Source: Thermoflexus hugenholtzii JAD2 (GTDB taxonomy: Bacteria > Chloroflexota > UBA11872 > UBA12225). From it: 34,093 bases of DNA. Below are positions 27,902-33,958 of the stretch, in pieces. The stretch spans positions 1 to 34,093 of the forward strand of contig CAMDTO010000014.1 in the NCBI GenBank assembly GCA_945907765.1. Reading direction: 5' to 3'. The notes beneath the pieces are model-generated. The model saw nothing but the letters and a program-made list of their open reading frames with translations. It had not been told where the DNA came from and ran no database searches. How positions within the stretch are numbered: position 1 is the stretch's first letter; each line of letters opens with the position of its first letter. Both the position numbers and the translations under genes were made by a program.

Positions 27902-27927
27902 CCCGTTCATGAGTCGTGGGCGTACCA

Positions 27928-29100
27928 ATGGCTGGCGGCGTGAATAAATCGGTTCACGATCGCCGTGTGACACGACGCGCCGTGATTGGGATCACAGTGA
28001 CCTTGCCCGTGCTGGGTGCATGCGTGGCCGACACCGTTGCGGTTCCGTCGTTACCGGCGCCATCGCGCGCAGTCCAGAACACCGAGGGAAACCCTTGGGG
28101 AACAAACACCTTCCTCCATAAGGAAGTCGAGGCGTGGAAGCGCGAACAGACCCTTTCGATGATAGAGGCCGCAGGGTTCACCTGGATCAAGCAGCAGTTT
28201 CCGTGGGAGGAGATTGAGCAACCACGGAAGGGTCAGTTCTTCGACGTCAAGTACGTACAGGGCACGTGGGAGAAGTTTGACGAACTCGTCCGCTTGGCAG
28301 GTCTGTCGGGTCTCAAGATGATTGCGCGGGTAGACCGTCCACCCGCCTGGGCAAGACTGGACAAGACCCGCCCGCAAGGACCACCCGACAACCTGAATGA
28401 CTTTGGCGACTTCTTGTTCTTGCTCGCATCCCGGTACAAGGGTCGTGTCAATCACTTCCAGGTTTGGAATGAACCGAACTTGGGCGAGGAGTGGACGGGT
28501 AAGCCTGACCCAGTTGGATACACGTCCATGCTAAAGGTGGCATACCGACGCATCAAGGAGGCCAATCCTCAGGCGTCCGTGCTTGCCGCACCCCTTGCCA
28601 TGAATGTGGAGCTTGGTCCGATCCATCTGAATGAAATGGATTTCCTTGATCAGATGTACCTGGCAGGCGCCAAGGGAACGTTCGACATCCTGTGCGCGAA
28701 CGCCTATGGCATGGACCGGACCCCGGCCGACCCACCCTCCCGGCAGATCCTGAACTTCCGCCGTGTCGAGCTCTTGCGTGCAGTGATGGAAAAGCATGGC
28801 GATAGCGCAACGGCGGTCTGGTTTAACGAATATGGCTGGAATGCAAGCCCAAAGGACATGCCCCGCGAGGAACTCATCTGGCAACGGGTAACCGACCGTC
28901 AGCAGGCGGATTGGACCGTTGAAGGCGTGGACTATGCCCGTCGAAACTGGCCTTGGGCCGGCGTTTTCTGCACCTGGTACTTTCGTCAAGTTGGGGATAT
29001 TTCCCCCTCAAAATCGGAGTACTACTTCCGTCTCGTCGACCCGGACTTCACGCCTCGGCCTGTCTACCACGCAATCAAGGCAGTGGCTGGGCGAAAGTGA
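27928..29100 (+). CDS. Glycoside hydrolase, clan GH-A / cellulase-like, Tat/lipoprotein-type signal
   Basis: RRVTRRAVIGITVTLPVLGAC signal; FQVWNEPNLGEEW (acid/base Glu) and AVWFNEYGWNASP (nucleophile Glu). ORF opens with GTG at 27916. Confidence 0.83.
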   Translation: MAGGVNKSVHDRRVTRRAVIGITVTLPVLGACVADTVAVPSLPAPSRAVQNTEGNPWGTNTFLHKEVEAWKREQTLSMIEAAGFTWIKQQFPWEEIEQPRKGQFFDVKYVQGTWEKFDELVRLAGLSGLKMIARVDRPPAWARLDKTRPQGPPDNLNDFGDFLFLLASRYKGRVNHFQVWNEPNLGEEWTGKPDPVGYTSMLKVAYRRIKEANPQASVLAAPLAMNVELGPIHLNEMDFLDQMYLAGAKGTFDILCANAYGMDRTPADPPSRQILNFRRVELLRAVMEKHGDSATAVWFNEYGWNASPKDMPREELIWQRVTDRQQADWTVEGVDYARRNWPWAGVFCTWYFRQVGDISPSKSEYYFRLVDPDFTPRPVYHAIKAVAGRK

Positions 29101-29151: not shown

Positions 29152-32100
29152 ATGATCCGAACCGTTGTCGGTGTTTGCATTTGGATCACTGCGATCGGAC
29201 TGTCCGGTCTCGGCTTATGGACCGGCCGCCAGGTCCTCGATCGAGGGGTTGTCTACGGAGACCCCGGTCTGCCATTTCCGGAACATGACGTGACAGCCCA
29301 CGCCGTCAACACTCAACTTGAACTTGAACCAGATGATTTGTCGGTGGCGCGGACCCTTGATCTTGTAAGGGACGCCGGGTTTGGTTGGATTCGGCAGCAA
29401 GTGTCGTGGGCGGACATCGAACCCGGACACAAGGGCAATTTCTGGGACTTCGAACGGAATCGGCCAACATGGACACGGTGGGACACCATCGCGAGGTTGG
29501 CGCGTGACCGGAACTTGCGGGTAATTGCCCGTCTCGAACTCCCACCCGCTTGGTCTCGCCCAGAAGGGTCGTACAAGTCGCACCCGCCGGTCAACGTTCG
29601 TGACTATGCCGACTTCGCTGCAGCATTCGCGTCGCGTTACCGTGACCAGATCGGCTATTTGCAGATCTGGAATGAACCGAACCTTGCGGAGGAATGGGGG
29701 CGTCGGCCAGTCGACCCTGCGGCATACGTGGAGCTACTACGCGCCGGATACACCGCTGCAAGGCAGGGAAATCCCAAGGTTCGCATTCTGACCGCATCGC
29801 TGGCCCAGACGCTTGAACCGGACGACGAGACGGCCGCCGGACTTGACGACCTTGTCTATTTCGACCGGATGTACCTGTATGGCGCCGCGCCCTTCTTCGA
29901 TATCGCAGCAGCTAATGGGTACGGTCTATGGACCGGCCCAGACGACCATCAGGTCGGGTCCTGGTACACAAACCTGCCACGGATCACGCTGATCCGTGAG
30001 GTGATGGTGAGGTATCGCGATACGGCCAAGCCGATCTGGATTTCCGAGTTCGGATGGAACACCCAACCCGTTGACTGGACCGGAAGACCATCGCCGTGGG
30101 GTCGGGTCGACGAGGCAACGCAAGCGTCGCACCTGAGTGGTGGCTACGCGCGGGCTGCGCGCGAATGGCCTTGGCTTGGTCCCATGGCAGTCTGGCTGAT
30201 GAGACAGCCTCGCGCTGAGGTGGGCGACCCAACTCCGTTCTTTGCACTCGTCCGCGAGGATTGGACGACAAGACCGGCGTACGTTTCCCTGAAGGCGTCG
30301 GCGTCAACCCATGTCCTTGGTGTCGGCATGTGGCAGGAATCCGCACCAGGGGTGACCTACGAGGGCACATGGCAGGTCACGGATGACCCAAAGGCTGCGG
30401 GTGGTGCGCTTCGTGAGACACCAGCGCCGAATGCGCACGTTCGCCTTACGTTTGAAGGCACCCGTCTTGAGGTGGTGACTTCGGTTGGCCCGTCACGGGG
30501 CGTGGCTTATGTCACCATCGATGGGTCCTATCTGCTTGCAAACGAGCGCCCTCGGAACCGGTTCGGCCAGGCGACGCTCGACCTTGGATCGCCACGGCCC
30601 GCCGACGCAAACCGGTTCCTCGTAGCGTCGGGGCTTCCGGATGGACCCCACGAGTTTGAACTTACCGTCAGTGGTGACGTTGGCACCGGTTCATCTGCAC
30701 CGGGTGTTGCTTTCGATGGGGTGGTGGTGTCGAGGGACCGAACTTTCACAGCCGAGATCGTCTTCATCCTTGGGCTGATCGCGTCAGGGATCGGCTTTCT
30801 CTGGCTGTTGCGTGCCCCAGTCAGACGGGCGCTGGTCGACGGTATTGGCTACTTTCGCGACGACTGGACTATTCATAGTGGCCGGATCAAAGAGGAATTC
30901 GGTGCTGTCGACAGTCGAGCCCCTCTGGGCAGTTCGCACACGGGCGCCGATGTCGGTCCACCCACTGCGACCGATGAAATGTCATCCGGGACGATCCCTA
31001 ATCGAGATCTTGCGAACGAGGTCAAGGGACCATCCCAAGGTCAGACTGTAGGTTGGCTTCAACGGGACTGGATTTCCGACGCCATTCTTGCCTTCCCGGC
31101 GATCTTGCCTTTGGCGCCGGTAGCGCTCAGCACGACTGTTGGTCGGTTCTCGCCAGTTGAACTTGGTCTGCTCGGGTTGGTGTCACTCGCCTTCCTCAGG
31201 GCAATGCTTCGACCCCAGCCAAAGGATCCGTACGGTAAGAACGCAGCCGTTGCCCGCTTGCATTTTCAATGTGATGGTCTTGTGGTTGCTGCCGTTGCCC
31301 TCGGAGTTGCTGGAACGGTCGCGGCGGTGTCATCTGCCTACCCGAACCCGGCCTGGCGTGAGTGGAGGCAGGTCATCATTGAACCGGTCACGTGGTTCCT
31401 GCTCGCCAGATTGGTTGCACGACGCGAGGACGCCGGTAGACGTATCGCGATTGCGATGATCGCGGGCGCCTCCGTAGTGTCGGTCCTTGCGCTTGGGCAA
31501 TGGGTCTTTGGCATCGGTCTTGTTGACGCGGATGGGGTCGAGCGCGCGCGTGCGCTCTACCCAAGCCCCAACAACCTTGCACTGTTCATCGGCAGAGTTG
31601 CTCCGCTTGCGGTAGCACTCGGCCTGTGGCCGAGTCCCATCGGTAGCCCCCTGACGCGATTGTGGTTGCTCGCATCCGTCGTGGTCATTGTCACTGGGGT
31701 GGTCGTGACGTATTCCCGTGGGGCTTGGCTTGCGGTAGGGATTGCACTGATTTGGATTGGTCGCAAATGGCTCACTTCGAGGCAAATTGCGATACGGCCT
31801 TCGCGAAAAGTATTCCTTTTGTTCATGGCCACAGTTGCTGGTGCAATCATTGTGATGTCAATGTCGGAGAGGCTCCGGCTCATGTTCGTGTCTGGCGGAA
31901 CCGGCCTGTTGCGATTGAGTGTCTGGACCGGTGCCGTGGCGATGATCCGCGACCACCCATGGTTGGGCCTCGGGCTTGATCAGTTTGTCTACGCCTACCC
32001 GAACTACATGGGTGCCGACGCGTGGAGGGAGCCAAACCTTTCGCATCCGCACCAGTTCCTGCTCGATTTCTGGATCCGGTTGGGCGTCCCTGGGGTCCTC

Positions 32101-32358
32101 CTGTTGATGGTTGTCGGCATCAGGCTGATCTGGAGGCTTCGCGCTGGTGATCGCTCGCGGAACTTCAACCCCCTCGTGGTAGGCACTTCGGGTGCCTTCA
32201 TCGTATGGGCTATCCACGGCCTCGTGGACAACAGTTACTTTGTTTCAGACCTTGCGTACGCGACATGGGCGCTCCTGCTTATTCATGACCTCGCGACCGC
32301 GACTAACCCCTCCACCCTCAATTCGGGGCATGGCTCATTTGAAAAGTCGAACGACTGA
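29152..32358 (+). CDS. Fusion: N-terminal TM + GH-A-like glycoside hydrolase + beta-sandwich domain + O-antigen ligase/polymerase-like (Wzy_C) multi-TM domain
   Basis: Single 1068-aa frame: LQIWNEPNLAEEW and PIWISEFGWNTQP; GVTYEGTWQVTDDPKAAGGALRETPAPNAHVRLTFEGTRLEVV; then TM helices with YPSPNNLALFIGRVAPLAVAL, YSRGAWLAVG, DHPWLGLGLDQF and LSHPHQFLLDFWIRLGVPG. Confidence 0.85.
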   Translation: MIRTVVGVCIWITAIGLSGLGLWTGRQVLDRGVVYGDPGLPFPEHDVTAHAVNTQLELEPDDLSVARTLDLVRDAGFGWIRQQVSWADIEPGHKGNFWDFERNRPTWTRWDTIARLARDRNLRVIARLELPPAWSRPEGSYKSHPPVNVRDYADFAAAFASRYRDQIGYLQIWNEPNLAEEWGRRPVDPAAYVELLRAGYTAARQGNPKVRILTASLAQTLEPDDETAAGLDDLVYFDRMYLYGAAPFFDIAAANGYGLWTGPDDHQVGSWYTNLPRITLIREVMVRYRDTAKPIWISEFGWNTQPVDWTGRPSPWGRVDEATQASHLSGGYARAAREWPWLGPMAVWLMRQPRAEVGDPTPFFALVREDWTTRPAYVSLKASASTHVLGVGMWQESAPGVTYEGTWQVTDDPKAAGGALRETPAPNAHVRLTFEGTRLEVVTSVGPSRGVAYVTIDGSYLLANERPRNRFGQATLDLGSPRPADANRFLVASGLPDGPHEFELTVSGDVGTGSSAPGVAFDGVVVSRDRTFTAEIVFILGLIASGIGFLWLLRAPVRRALVDGIGYFRDDWTIHSGRIKEEFGAVDSRAPLGSSHTGADVGPPTATDEMSSGTIPNRDLANEVKGPSQGQTVGWLQRDWISDAILAFPAILPLAPVALSTTVGRFSPVELGLLGLVSLAFLRAMLRPQPKDPYGKNAAVARLHFQCDGLVVAAVALGVAGTVAAVSSAYPNPAWREWRQVIIEPVTWFLLARLVARREDAGRRIAIAMIAGASVVSVLALGQWVFGIGLVDADGVERARALYPSPNNLALFIGRVAPLAVALGLWPSPIGSPLTRLWLLASVVVIVTGVVVTYSRGAWLAVGIALIWIGRKWLTSRQIAIRPSRKVFLLFMATVAGAIIVMSMSERLRLMFVSGGTGLLRLSVWTGAVAMIRDHPWLGLGLDQFVYAYPNYMGADAWREPNLSHPHQFLLDFWIRLGVPGVLLLMVVGIRLIWRLRAGDRSRNFNPLVVGTSGAFIVWAIHGLVDNSYFVSDLAYATWALLLIHDLATATNPSTLNSGHGSFEKSND

Positions 32359-32404: not shown

Positions 32405-33958
32405 TTGGATTGGTCGACTGAGGGACTTTTGACGACCGATCAGCAACGCGTTCCGGTGTCAGGCCGGACCACCTTACGCACCGTTTCGACGCCCAGTTCA
32501 GCTGTTGCCGTGACTGTTGGTGATGCCAGAGATGGCATGGTGTTCCCACACAGGACGGCCCCGCCACCCGCGTGGATGGTCGCGATCCCAATCGGGTTGG
32601 CCATCGCCCTCTTGCCCGCGTACTTGACCGCCGTGCTTCTCGTCGGTGTCGCTGGGGTTGCCGTCCTCATGGCACGTCCGCTATGGGCGCTCTTCGCGCT
32701 AGCGTTCACGGTCCCCTATCAGGGTCTCGCCGATTTCCGTTACCAGAGCGTCAACATTACGCCTACCGAGGCAGTTTTCCTTCTCCTGGTTATCGGATGG
32801 GGCACGGCAAGGGCGGCCGGTAGGGTGCCGGCACCGTCGCTCAGCCCCCTGGTTATCGCGATCGGCTTGCTGTTGAGCCTGCTGATCCTTTCCTGTGTGG
32901 TTGCGCCAAACCTGATCCTCGCTGGCAAGGAGCTGGTCAAGTGGGTTGAGGTCGCAGGCGTCACACTGATCGGTCAGAGCCTTCTTGTTCGCATTGCGGA
33001 CCGCCGGATGATGTTCCTGGTCATGACCGCGGCGGTGGTTTCGCAGGCGGTGTACGGATTGCTTCAGGCAACACAACACTGGGGACCTGACCATTTCATG
33101 ATCGGGTCATGGCTGATGCGTGCCTACGGAAATTTCGAGCAGCCAAACCCCTATGCTGGCTATCTCGGGTTGCACCTGCCGTTGGTGTTGTCGGTGGCAC
33201 TTTTCGGTGTCCGAACCCGCCCGGCGCGATGGTTCTGGGGAGGCGCTTCGGCCCTCCTCGCGGTCGCGCTGGTTACCTCGATGTCACGCGGTGCGTGGCT
33301 GGGGCAAATCACGGGCATTCTGACTGTCGTGCTGATTGAAAGCCGTAGTGCGCGCCACGCAGTCCTGACGTTCGGGGGTCTGGGTTCGGTTATTCTGCTT
33401 GCGTTGTGGCCGGTCCTTCCCTCAGAGGTGACCGACCGAATCGGCAGCATTTTCGGGTCGCTTTTCGCCGTCTTCTCACTGGCATCGACGACACTTACCC
33501 CAGCAAATTGGGCAGTCATGGAACGCCTGTCCCAGTGGTACGCGGGGTGGCAGATGTTCAGTGCGAACCCCATCGTTGGAGTTGGGATCGGCAATTACAA
33601 CACAGCCTATGCCACATATCGCCTGCCCGAATGGCCGGTGGCTCTGGGGCACGCGCACAATCACTACTTGACGATCGCGGCTGAGGCAGGACTGTTCGCG
33701 TGTCTCGCCTACATCATCGTCATCCTTGTCGCGATCCGGTCAACCCGCACGGCATGGCGAACGGCGACCACGAGATACGGTCGCGCAATTGCACTGGGAA
33801 CCCTTGGCAGTATCGGGGCTCTAGCGACGCACAATCTTGTTGACGTGCTGTTTGTGCATGGGATGAGCGTAACCATTGGCTTGTTACTGGCGCTGTCGAG
33901 CGTCAGTGATGAGCGTGATCCGGTTCCGTCTGGATTGATCTCACGGATCATGGAGTGA
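32405..33958 (+). CDS. O-antigen ligase/polymerase-like membrane protein (Wzy_C)
   Basis: Polytopic; NFEQPNPYAGYLGLHLPLVLS, MSRGAWLGQ, ANPIVGVGIGNYNTAYATY, GHAHNHYLTIAAEAGLFA. Start could be TTG 32405 or ATG 32537. Confidence 0.87.
   Translation: MDWSTEGLLTTDQQRVPVSGRTTLRTVSTPSSAVAVTVGDARDGMVFPHRTAPPPAWMVAIPIGLAIALLPAYLTAVLLVGVAGVAVLMARPLWALFALAFTVPYQGLADFRYQSVNITPTEAVFLLLVIGWGTARAAGRVPAPSLSPLVIAIGLLLSLLILSCVVAPNLILAGKELVKWVEVAGVTLIGQSLLVRIADRRMMFLVMTAAVVSQAVYGLLQATQHWGPDHFMIGSWLMRAYGNFEQPNPYAGYLGLHLPLVLSVALFGVRTRPARWFWGGASALLAVALVTSMSRGAWLGQITGILTVVLIESRSARHAVLTFGGLGSVILLALWPVLPSEVTDRIGSIFGSLFAVFSLASTTLTPANWAVMERLSQWYAGWQMFSANPIVGVGIGNYNTAYATYRLPEWPVALGHAHNHYLTIAAEAGLFACLAYIIVILVAIRSTRTAWRTATTRYGRAIALGTLGSIGALATHNLVDVLFVHGMSVTIGLLLALSSVSDERDPVPSGLISRIME

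Follow-up and report, generated by a model that had tools for sequence, protein, structure and literature searches.

A PslG-like glycoside hydrolase joined to a Wzy_C-type membrane enzyme in one protein of Chloroflexota

The reason for the presence of glycosidases in polysaccharide synthesis loci is an explicitly open question (PMC9075953). The window (the whole stretch of DNA analysed, 34,093 nucleotides, from a lake bacterium of the Chloroflexota) poses this question for a single protein, in which a membrane enzyme of the polysaccharide-assembly type and a sugar-cutting enzyme are joined. What does each half resemble, are both kept by selection, and what might the joined protein do? The recurrence of the join across the phylum makes it testable why bacteria put a cutting enzyme beside polysaccharide-building machinery.

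The fusion protein is encoded at 29152..32358 on the forward strand, as are all features of the window described here. As the initial annotation had read it, the frame is uninterrupted, running from an ATG at 29152 to a stop at 32358 with zero internal stops and encoding 1068 amino acids. A predicted N-terminal TM helix or signal anchor (aa ~1-21, 29152..29214), placed by hydropathy averaged over the family, is followed by a GH39/PslG-like TIM-barrel domain (aa 46-395, 29287..30336) and a CBM-like β-sandwich (aa 396-530, 30337..30741). The sandwich is indicated by low-confidence strands in an AlphaFold2 model, by fold alignment with PslG and by domain conservation. A second predicted TM helix (aa ~534-555, 30751..30816), with its hydropathy peak at aa 544 and the basic segment RAPVRR behind it, leads into a polar linker that is predicted to be cytoplasmic (aa 556-640, 30817..31071) and then into a Wzy_C/WaaL-like polytopic domain (aa 641-1050, 31072..32301). 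The sandwich, TM helix and polar linker that had been described between the two enzymes are thus supported by the model and by hydropathy. Three genomes of the same genus carry the same fused frame with 97, 84 and 80% identity, and the frame is fused in 37 of the 41 genomes of the class (this one and 36 others). One of the same-genus loci is that of MAG UBA2235; UBA2235 is treated as part of an uncultured Chloroflexota class, and its MAGs are reported to top the phylum in their share of carbohydrate genes (PMC10608941). Within the genus, and excluding the pair with 97% identity, which is too close to measure, dN/dS is 0.04–0.05 for the GH, the most constrained domain, 0.05–0.07 for the β-sandwich, 0.16–0.21 for the Wzy domain and 0.46–0.70 for the second TM helix with the fast-evolving linker. 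The low values show that the GH and Wzy domains are both under purifying selection.

Profile and fold comparisons place the GH half close to PslG of Pseudomonas aeruginosa. A nine-sequence profile of this half matches PslG (5bx9) at E 7e-11 as one of its two best matches, and the Bacteroides GH39 structure 5jvk is also matched. In the AlphaFold2 model of residues 1-570 (mean pLDDT 66.7) the barrel blocks are mostly at pLDDT 80–95 and the sandwich is lower. The top PDB match of this model in Foldseek is PslG, with E 2.7e-20 and a fold alignment that covers nearly the whole PslG chain, and the next is 5jvk; the TIM barrel expected at the N-terminus is therefore seen in the model. The sequence identity with PslG is ~18%. 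Since the Pfam scan of the fusion protein returns no GH family up to E 1, and the cut-off of PF01229 (GH39) is not reached, the GH half is, as judged from sequence, a divergent GH39 relative and not a Pfam member. Both GH39-type catalytic positions, the Glu of the NEP motif and the nucleophile Glu, are present. E175 in IWNEPN (29674..29676), the predicted acid/base, aligns with PslG E165, and E299 in SEFGWN (30046..30048), the predicted nucleophile, aligns with PslG E276, in agreement with the initial description of a GH-A-like domain with both catalytic motifs. All class members keep E175, as do 42 of the 43 fused GH domains in the first set. Glycosidases of family GH39 are retaining and act on beta-linked substrates; PslG itself is of this kind, a retaining endo-beta-glucosidase (PMC11912335). 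It is bound to the inner membrane in P. aeruginosa, where Psl production depends on its hydrolytic activity; double mutation of E165 and E276 blocks normal Psl production (PMC6813494).

The sole Pfam match of the whole protein is Wzy_C (PF04932) at aa 842-985, with E 3.2e-21 and 76.1 bits against a cut-off of 31.7. Among PDB structures WaaL (7tpg) is the sole credible match for the Wzy half, at a profile E of 7e-6 and with weak overall similarity, and NCBIfam RfaL is not reached (17 bits, cut-off 277). An AlphaFold2 model of this half, with pLDDT 42 from an alignment that was too shallow, was left unused. In the profile alignment to 7tpg, R856 of the SRG motif (31717..31719) falls on WaaL R191, R921 (31912..31914) on R265 and H967 of HPHQ (32050..32052) on H313. 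In WaaL the two arginines bind phosphate and the histidine activates the acceptor (PMC10920833). The residue set of WaaL/GT121, two diphosphate-binding Arg positions and one acceptor-activating His position, is thus present, and the Wzy_C-type membrane domain with YSRGAW and HPHQ motifs that had been proposed holds.

Hydropathy averaged over relatives gives 11–12 hydrophobic peaks in the Wzy part, where basic loops (RREDAGRR, IGRKWLTSRQIAIRPSRK, IRLIWRLRAGDRSR) alternate with loops bearing R798, R921 and H967. The GH and β-sandwich are bracketed by the two predicted TM helices. On the basis of hydropathy and charge, the simplest topology would have the GH outside the membrane together with the catalytic Wzy loops, and the linker inside.

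The gene order in the window and in the genus is lon protease, GH-A, the GH::Wzy fusion, Wzy2, a PF03706 membrane protein and GT4. GH-A (27916..29100) is a stand-alone paralogous GH of 394 aa with both catalytic Glu and 38% identity to the fused GH, and lies directly upstream of the fusion in most class loci. Its VLGAC lipobox follows a RRAVIG signal segment, and GH-A is therefore probably a surface lipoprotein. Wzy2 (32405..33958) is a separate Wzy_C protein of 517 aa (PF04932, E 5e-19). Loci of other families add an SDR epimerase and extra GT4 genes, and a PF02397 initiating transferase is present at one GH-sandwich locus (L095). PF02397 transferases are found in all 41 class genomes; this genome also has a Wzx-type flippase (PF01943) and four Wzy_C matches, while LpxC is absent from 40 of the 41, this one included. 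The gene context points to surface-polysaccharide assembly.

The reading that we favour, with a probability of roughly 0.6, is that the protein is a polymerase or ligase of undecaprenyl-PP-linked glycan which carries a tethered, outward-facing PslG-like endo-beta-glycosidase that trims or releases its product. The Wzy_C half would be an inverting membrane enzyme of the Wzy/WaaL superfamily with an undecaprenyl-PP-glycan donor, adding lipid-linked oligosaccharide units to a growing chain (the favoured polymerase version) or passing the chain to an acceptor (the ligase version). The retaining endo-beta-glycosidase would be anchored to this membrane from the outside, where the GH and β-sandwich would grip the emerging chain and the GH, with both Glu in place here, would cut it, so that the length of the chain is set or the chain is released from its lipid carrier. 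This would be a covalent version of the role of PslG in Psl synthesis, where PslG is a separate membrane-bound protein. The chemistry of the two halves appears to fit because enzymes of the WaaL clan are inverting and form equatorial bonds (PMC10920833) and GH39 enzymes are retaining on beta-linked substrates; an equatorial bond, which is beta for D-sugars, would be of the type that the fused GH cuts. The topology, the linkage of the substrate, hydrolysis and the coupling of both activities are all inferred here. If the reading is true, chain length or release would be set intramolecularly by a coupled enzyme.

The alternative that survives best, though doubtful, makes the Wzy half a ligase of finished glycan onto a wall, lipid or protein acceptor and Wzy2 the polymerase, with the GH preparing the donor chain or transglycosylating it. 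Since polymerase and ligase both lie inside the wording of the favoured reading, the confidences given to the two overlap. O-ligases are marked by a His where the acceptor is activated, a position at which characterised polymerases of the clan mostly have Asp or Glu (PMC10920833). H967 therefore favours a ligase, as does the whole Arg/Arg/His pattern shared with GT121 ligases (PMC10920833), and the adjoining of two different Wzy_C proteins would suit a division of labour between them. However, the His motif occurs in Wzy2 as well (HAHNH) and so fails to separate the fused Wzy from Wzy2, and the pairing with Wzy2 would allow either activity. Because LpxC is missing from 40 of the 41 class genomes, lipid A as acceptor, and with it the role of a lipid-A ligase, is excluded on gene content.

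The main rival overall concerns the GH, which could be mainly a glycan-binding, chain-guiding domain of pseudo-enzyme type that keeps product or donor in place for the Wzy half to act on, with catalysis secondary or lost. Across the 60 fusions the position of E299 is changed to A, N, H, Q or S in 12 and the acid/base position in four, and at least one catalytic Glu is gone in 10 of the 20 families with a fusion, none of them in the host class, while the fold, the fusion and mostly the β-sandwich stay. At least two changes in the state of the nucleophile are required on the tree. In contrast, both Glu are intact in 37 of 37 class fusions and in family f16, and the GH is the domain on which selection in the genus is strictest. 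A mainly chain-guiding GH is rather unlikely, a little more so than the ligase, yet it is likely where the active site is broken, and holding the glycan may be the role that all the fusions share. The catalytic residues are thus, as the alignments indicate, kept in the host lineage yet not required for the fusion to persist, because the fused GHs of ten families have lost one or both Glu. The bifunctional enzyme initially proposed is accordingly plausible in this lineage, but it is not a general rule. Whether the protein represents a phylum-wide coupled family, in which the polypeptide that builds a chain would also cut or transglycosylate it as it exits, and in which the GH has elsewhere become a dead chain guide, can be entertained tentatively, at somewhat less than even odds.

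An IctB-like transporter as the C-terminal half is very improbable and this identity was rejected, since the TIGR00947 match of 45.7 bits is far below the cut-off of 366 and the half matches PF04932 and WaaL with catalytic residues retained, in an operon with glycosyltransferases. Weaker still is the possibility that two genes only seem to form one long frame, through chimeric assembly or chance read-through, a concern of the initial annotation to which the hypervariable linker and the separate GH and Wzy genes of some lineages lend some colour, but which is refuted by the recurrence of the fused frame in the genus, in genomes that are independent, in nearly the whole class, in 15 Chloroflexota families beyond it and in a single-contig genome.

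Several known systems share parts of this design. PslG, a GH39 enzyme of the P. aeruginosa Psl system, has the same barrel, β-sandwich and two Glu positions, belongs to a polysaccharide synthesis locus and works at the inner membrane; however, it is a separate protein of a diderm host, whereas the fusion adds a second TM helix, a linker and a Wzy_C enzyme. WaaL is polytopic and shares Wzy_C and the aligned Arg, Arg and His, but it has no GH, and the class that hosts the fusion has no LpxC. Wzy_C polymerases (clan GT-C1) are of the same superfamily as the Wzy half, with a presumed undecaprenyl-PP donor; the account of the characterised GT-C1 Wzy families, mostly with Asp or Glu at the His position, mentions no GH domain (PMC10920833). 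The closest precedent for a covalent join is given by the GT2-GH17 'Orphan'/NdvB glucan synthases of pseudomonads, in which a periplasmic GH barrel is attached to a membrane synthase (PMC10237404). They differ from the fusion in their GH family, in a Leloir GT2 with a cytoplasmic active site and in a proposed cyclic beta-glucan product, and the composition found here is another one, with Wzy_C alone in Pfam and a GH39-like GH in Foldseek. The notion that glycosidase and polymerase are normally separate proteins therefore stands for PslG, but has an exception in GT2-GH17. What is already known comprises separate GH partners and this one kind of GH-synthase fusion (PMC10237404); a GH39-like::Wzy_C fusion was not found described in a literature search limited to open-licence papers. 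The architecture, which had been inferred to be novel, is thus new to that literature but not unique to this genome.

The genome search was centred on Chloroflexota, with a contig scan that detects close relatives only. Six fusions outside the class came from the first locus set, and 17 of 20 further loci, picked by their Wzy matches, are fused, so that the fused proteins overall number 60, from 20 family-level groups. Plasmid and phage collections gave GH-only matches and zero fusions. In the Wzy tree the fused domains and ten unfused Wzy domains form one clade apart from Wzy2 of the operon, and well-supported branches force at least three switches between the fused and unfused states; L084 (unfused) and L088 (fused) are sisters within one family. 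The GH tree has two separate groups, GH-A and the fused GH. Unfused Wzy lies behind GH-A, without a fused-type GH, at loci L080, L082-L085, L105 and L106. Family f54 (L111, L114, L115) has its fused-type GH and its Wzy in two adjoining genes, and f16, its sister group, has them fused. A simple history of an ancestral split pair and later fusion was rejected, since the GH before an unfused Wzy is mostly GH-A and the only true split is that of f54. The proposal that unfused Wzy1 is always beside a GH was also rejected, as the search by Wzy gives matches on contigs away from the GH; the 10 of 10 loci with the two side by side (one with an intervening gene) were fetched via the GH and form a biased set. 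Some relatives of the Wzy domain occur without any fused GH.

Two other Chloroflexota genomes have the module of a GH39-like domain and β-sandwich on a different partner, a PMT_2 membrane glycosyltransferase in a protein of 1129 aa (L096:6610-9999, minus strand) and a GT2 glycosyltransferase in one of 999 aa (L097:7039-10038, minus strand). Such joining, repeated with assembly enzymes of different kinds, speaks strongly though indirectly for a role of the GH in assembly. The forms that occur in nature, active or dead and split or fused, offer a comparative experiment on whether a glycosidase acts on the product of its partner, which the same kind of module on two other types of glycosyltransferase widens. 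It also gives a handle on the surface polysaccharides of Chloroflexota, which are without lipid-A-based LPS and poorly known.

A few members depart from the common pattern. In a thinned set of fusions R856 is often changed where the GH nucleophile is gone (6 of 12, against 3 of 29 with it intact), an association that shared ancestry may explain. The nucleophile of GH-A is lost in one genus of the class, with SAYGWN at the position of SEFGWN (L058, L059, L060, L063, L064, L076). The single LpxC match of the class (G017:C28:3673-4476, E 8e-98) may be contamination of that MAG. In the fused protein of G009 (L075:1390-5100, plus strand; 1236 aa) the GH is matched twice in tandem, which may reflect internal duplication of a part of the protein or else an artefact of assembly. 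The frame of G024, of the same class (L138:277-2082, minus strand), consists of the β-sandwich and Wzy only, and its GH barrel appears to have been lost.
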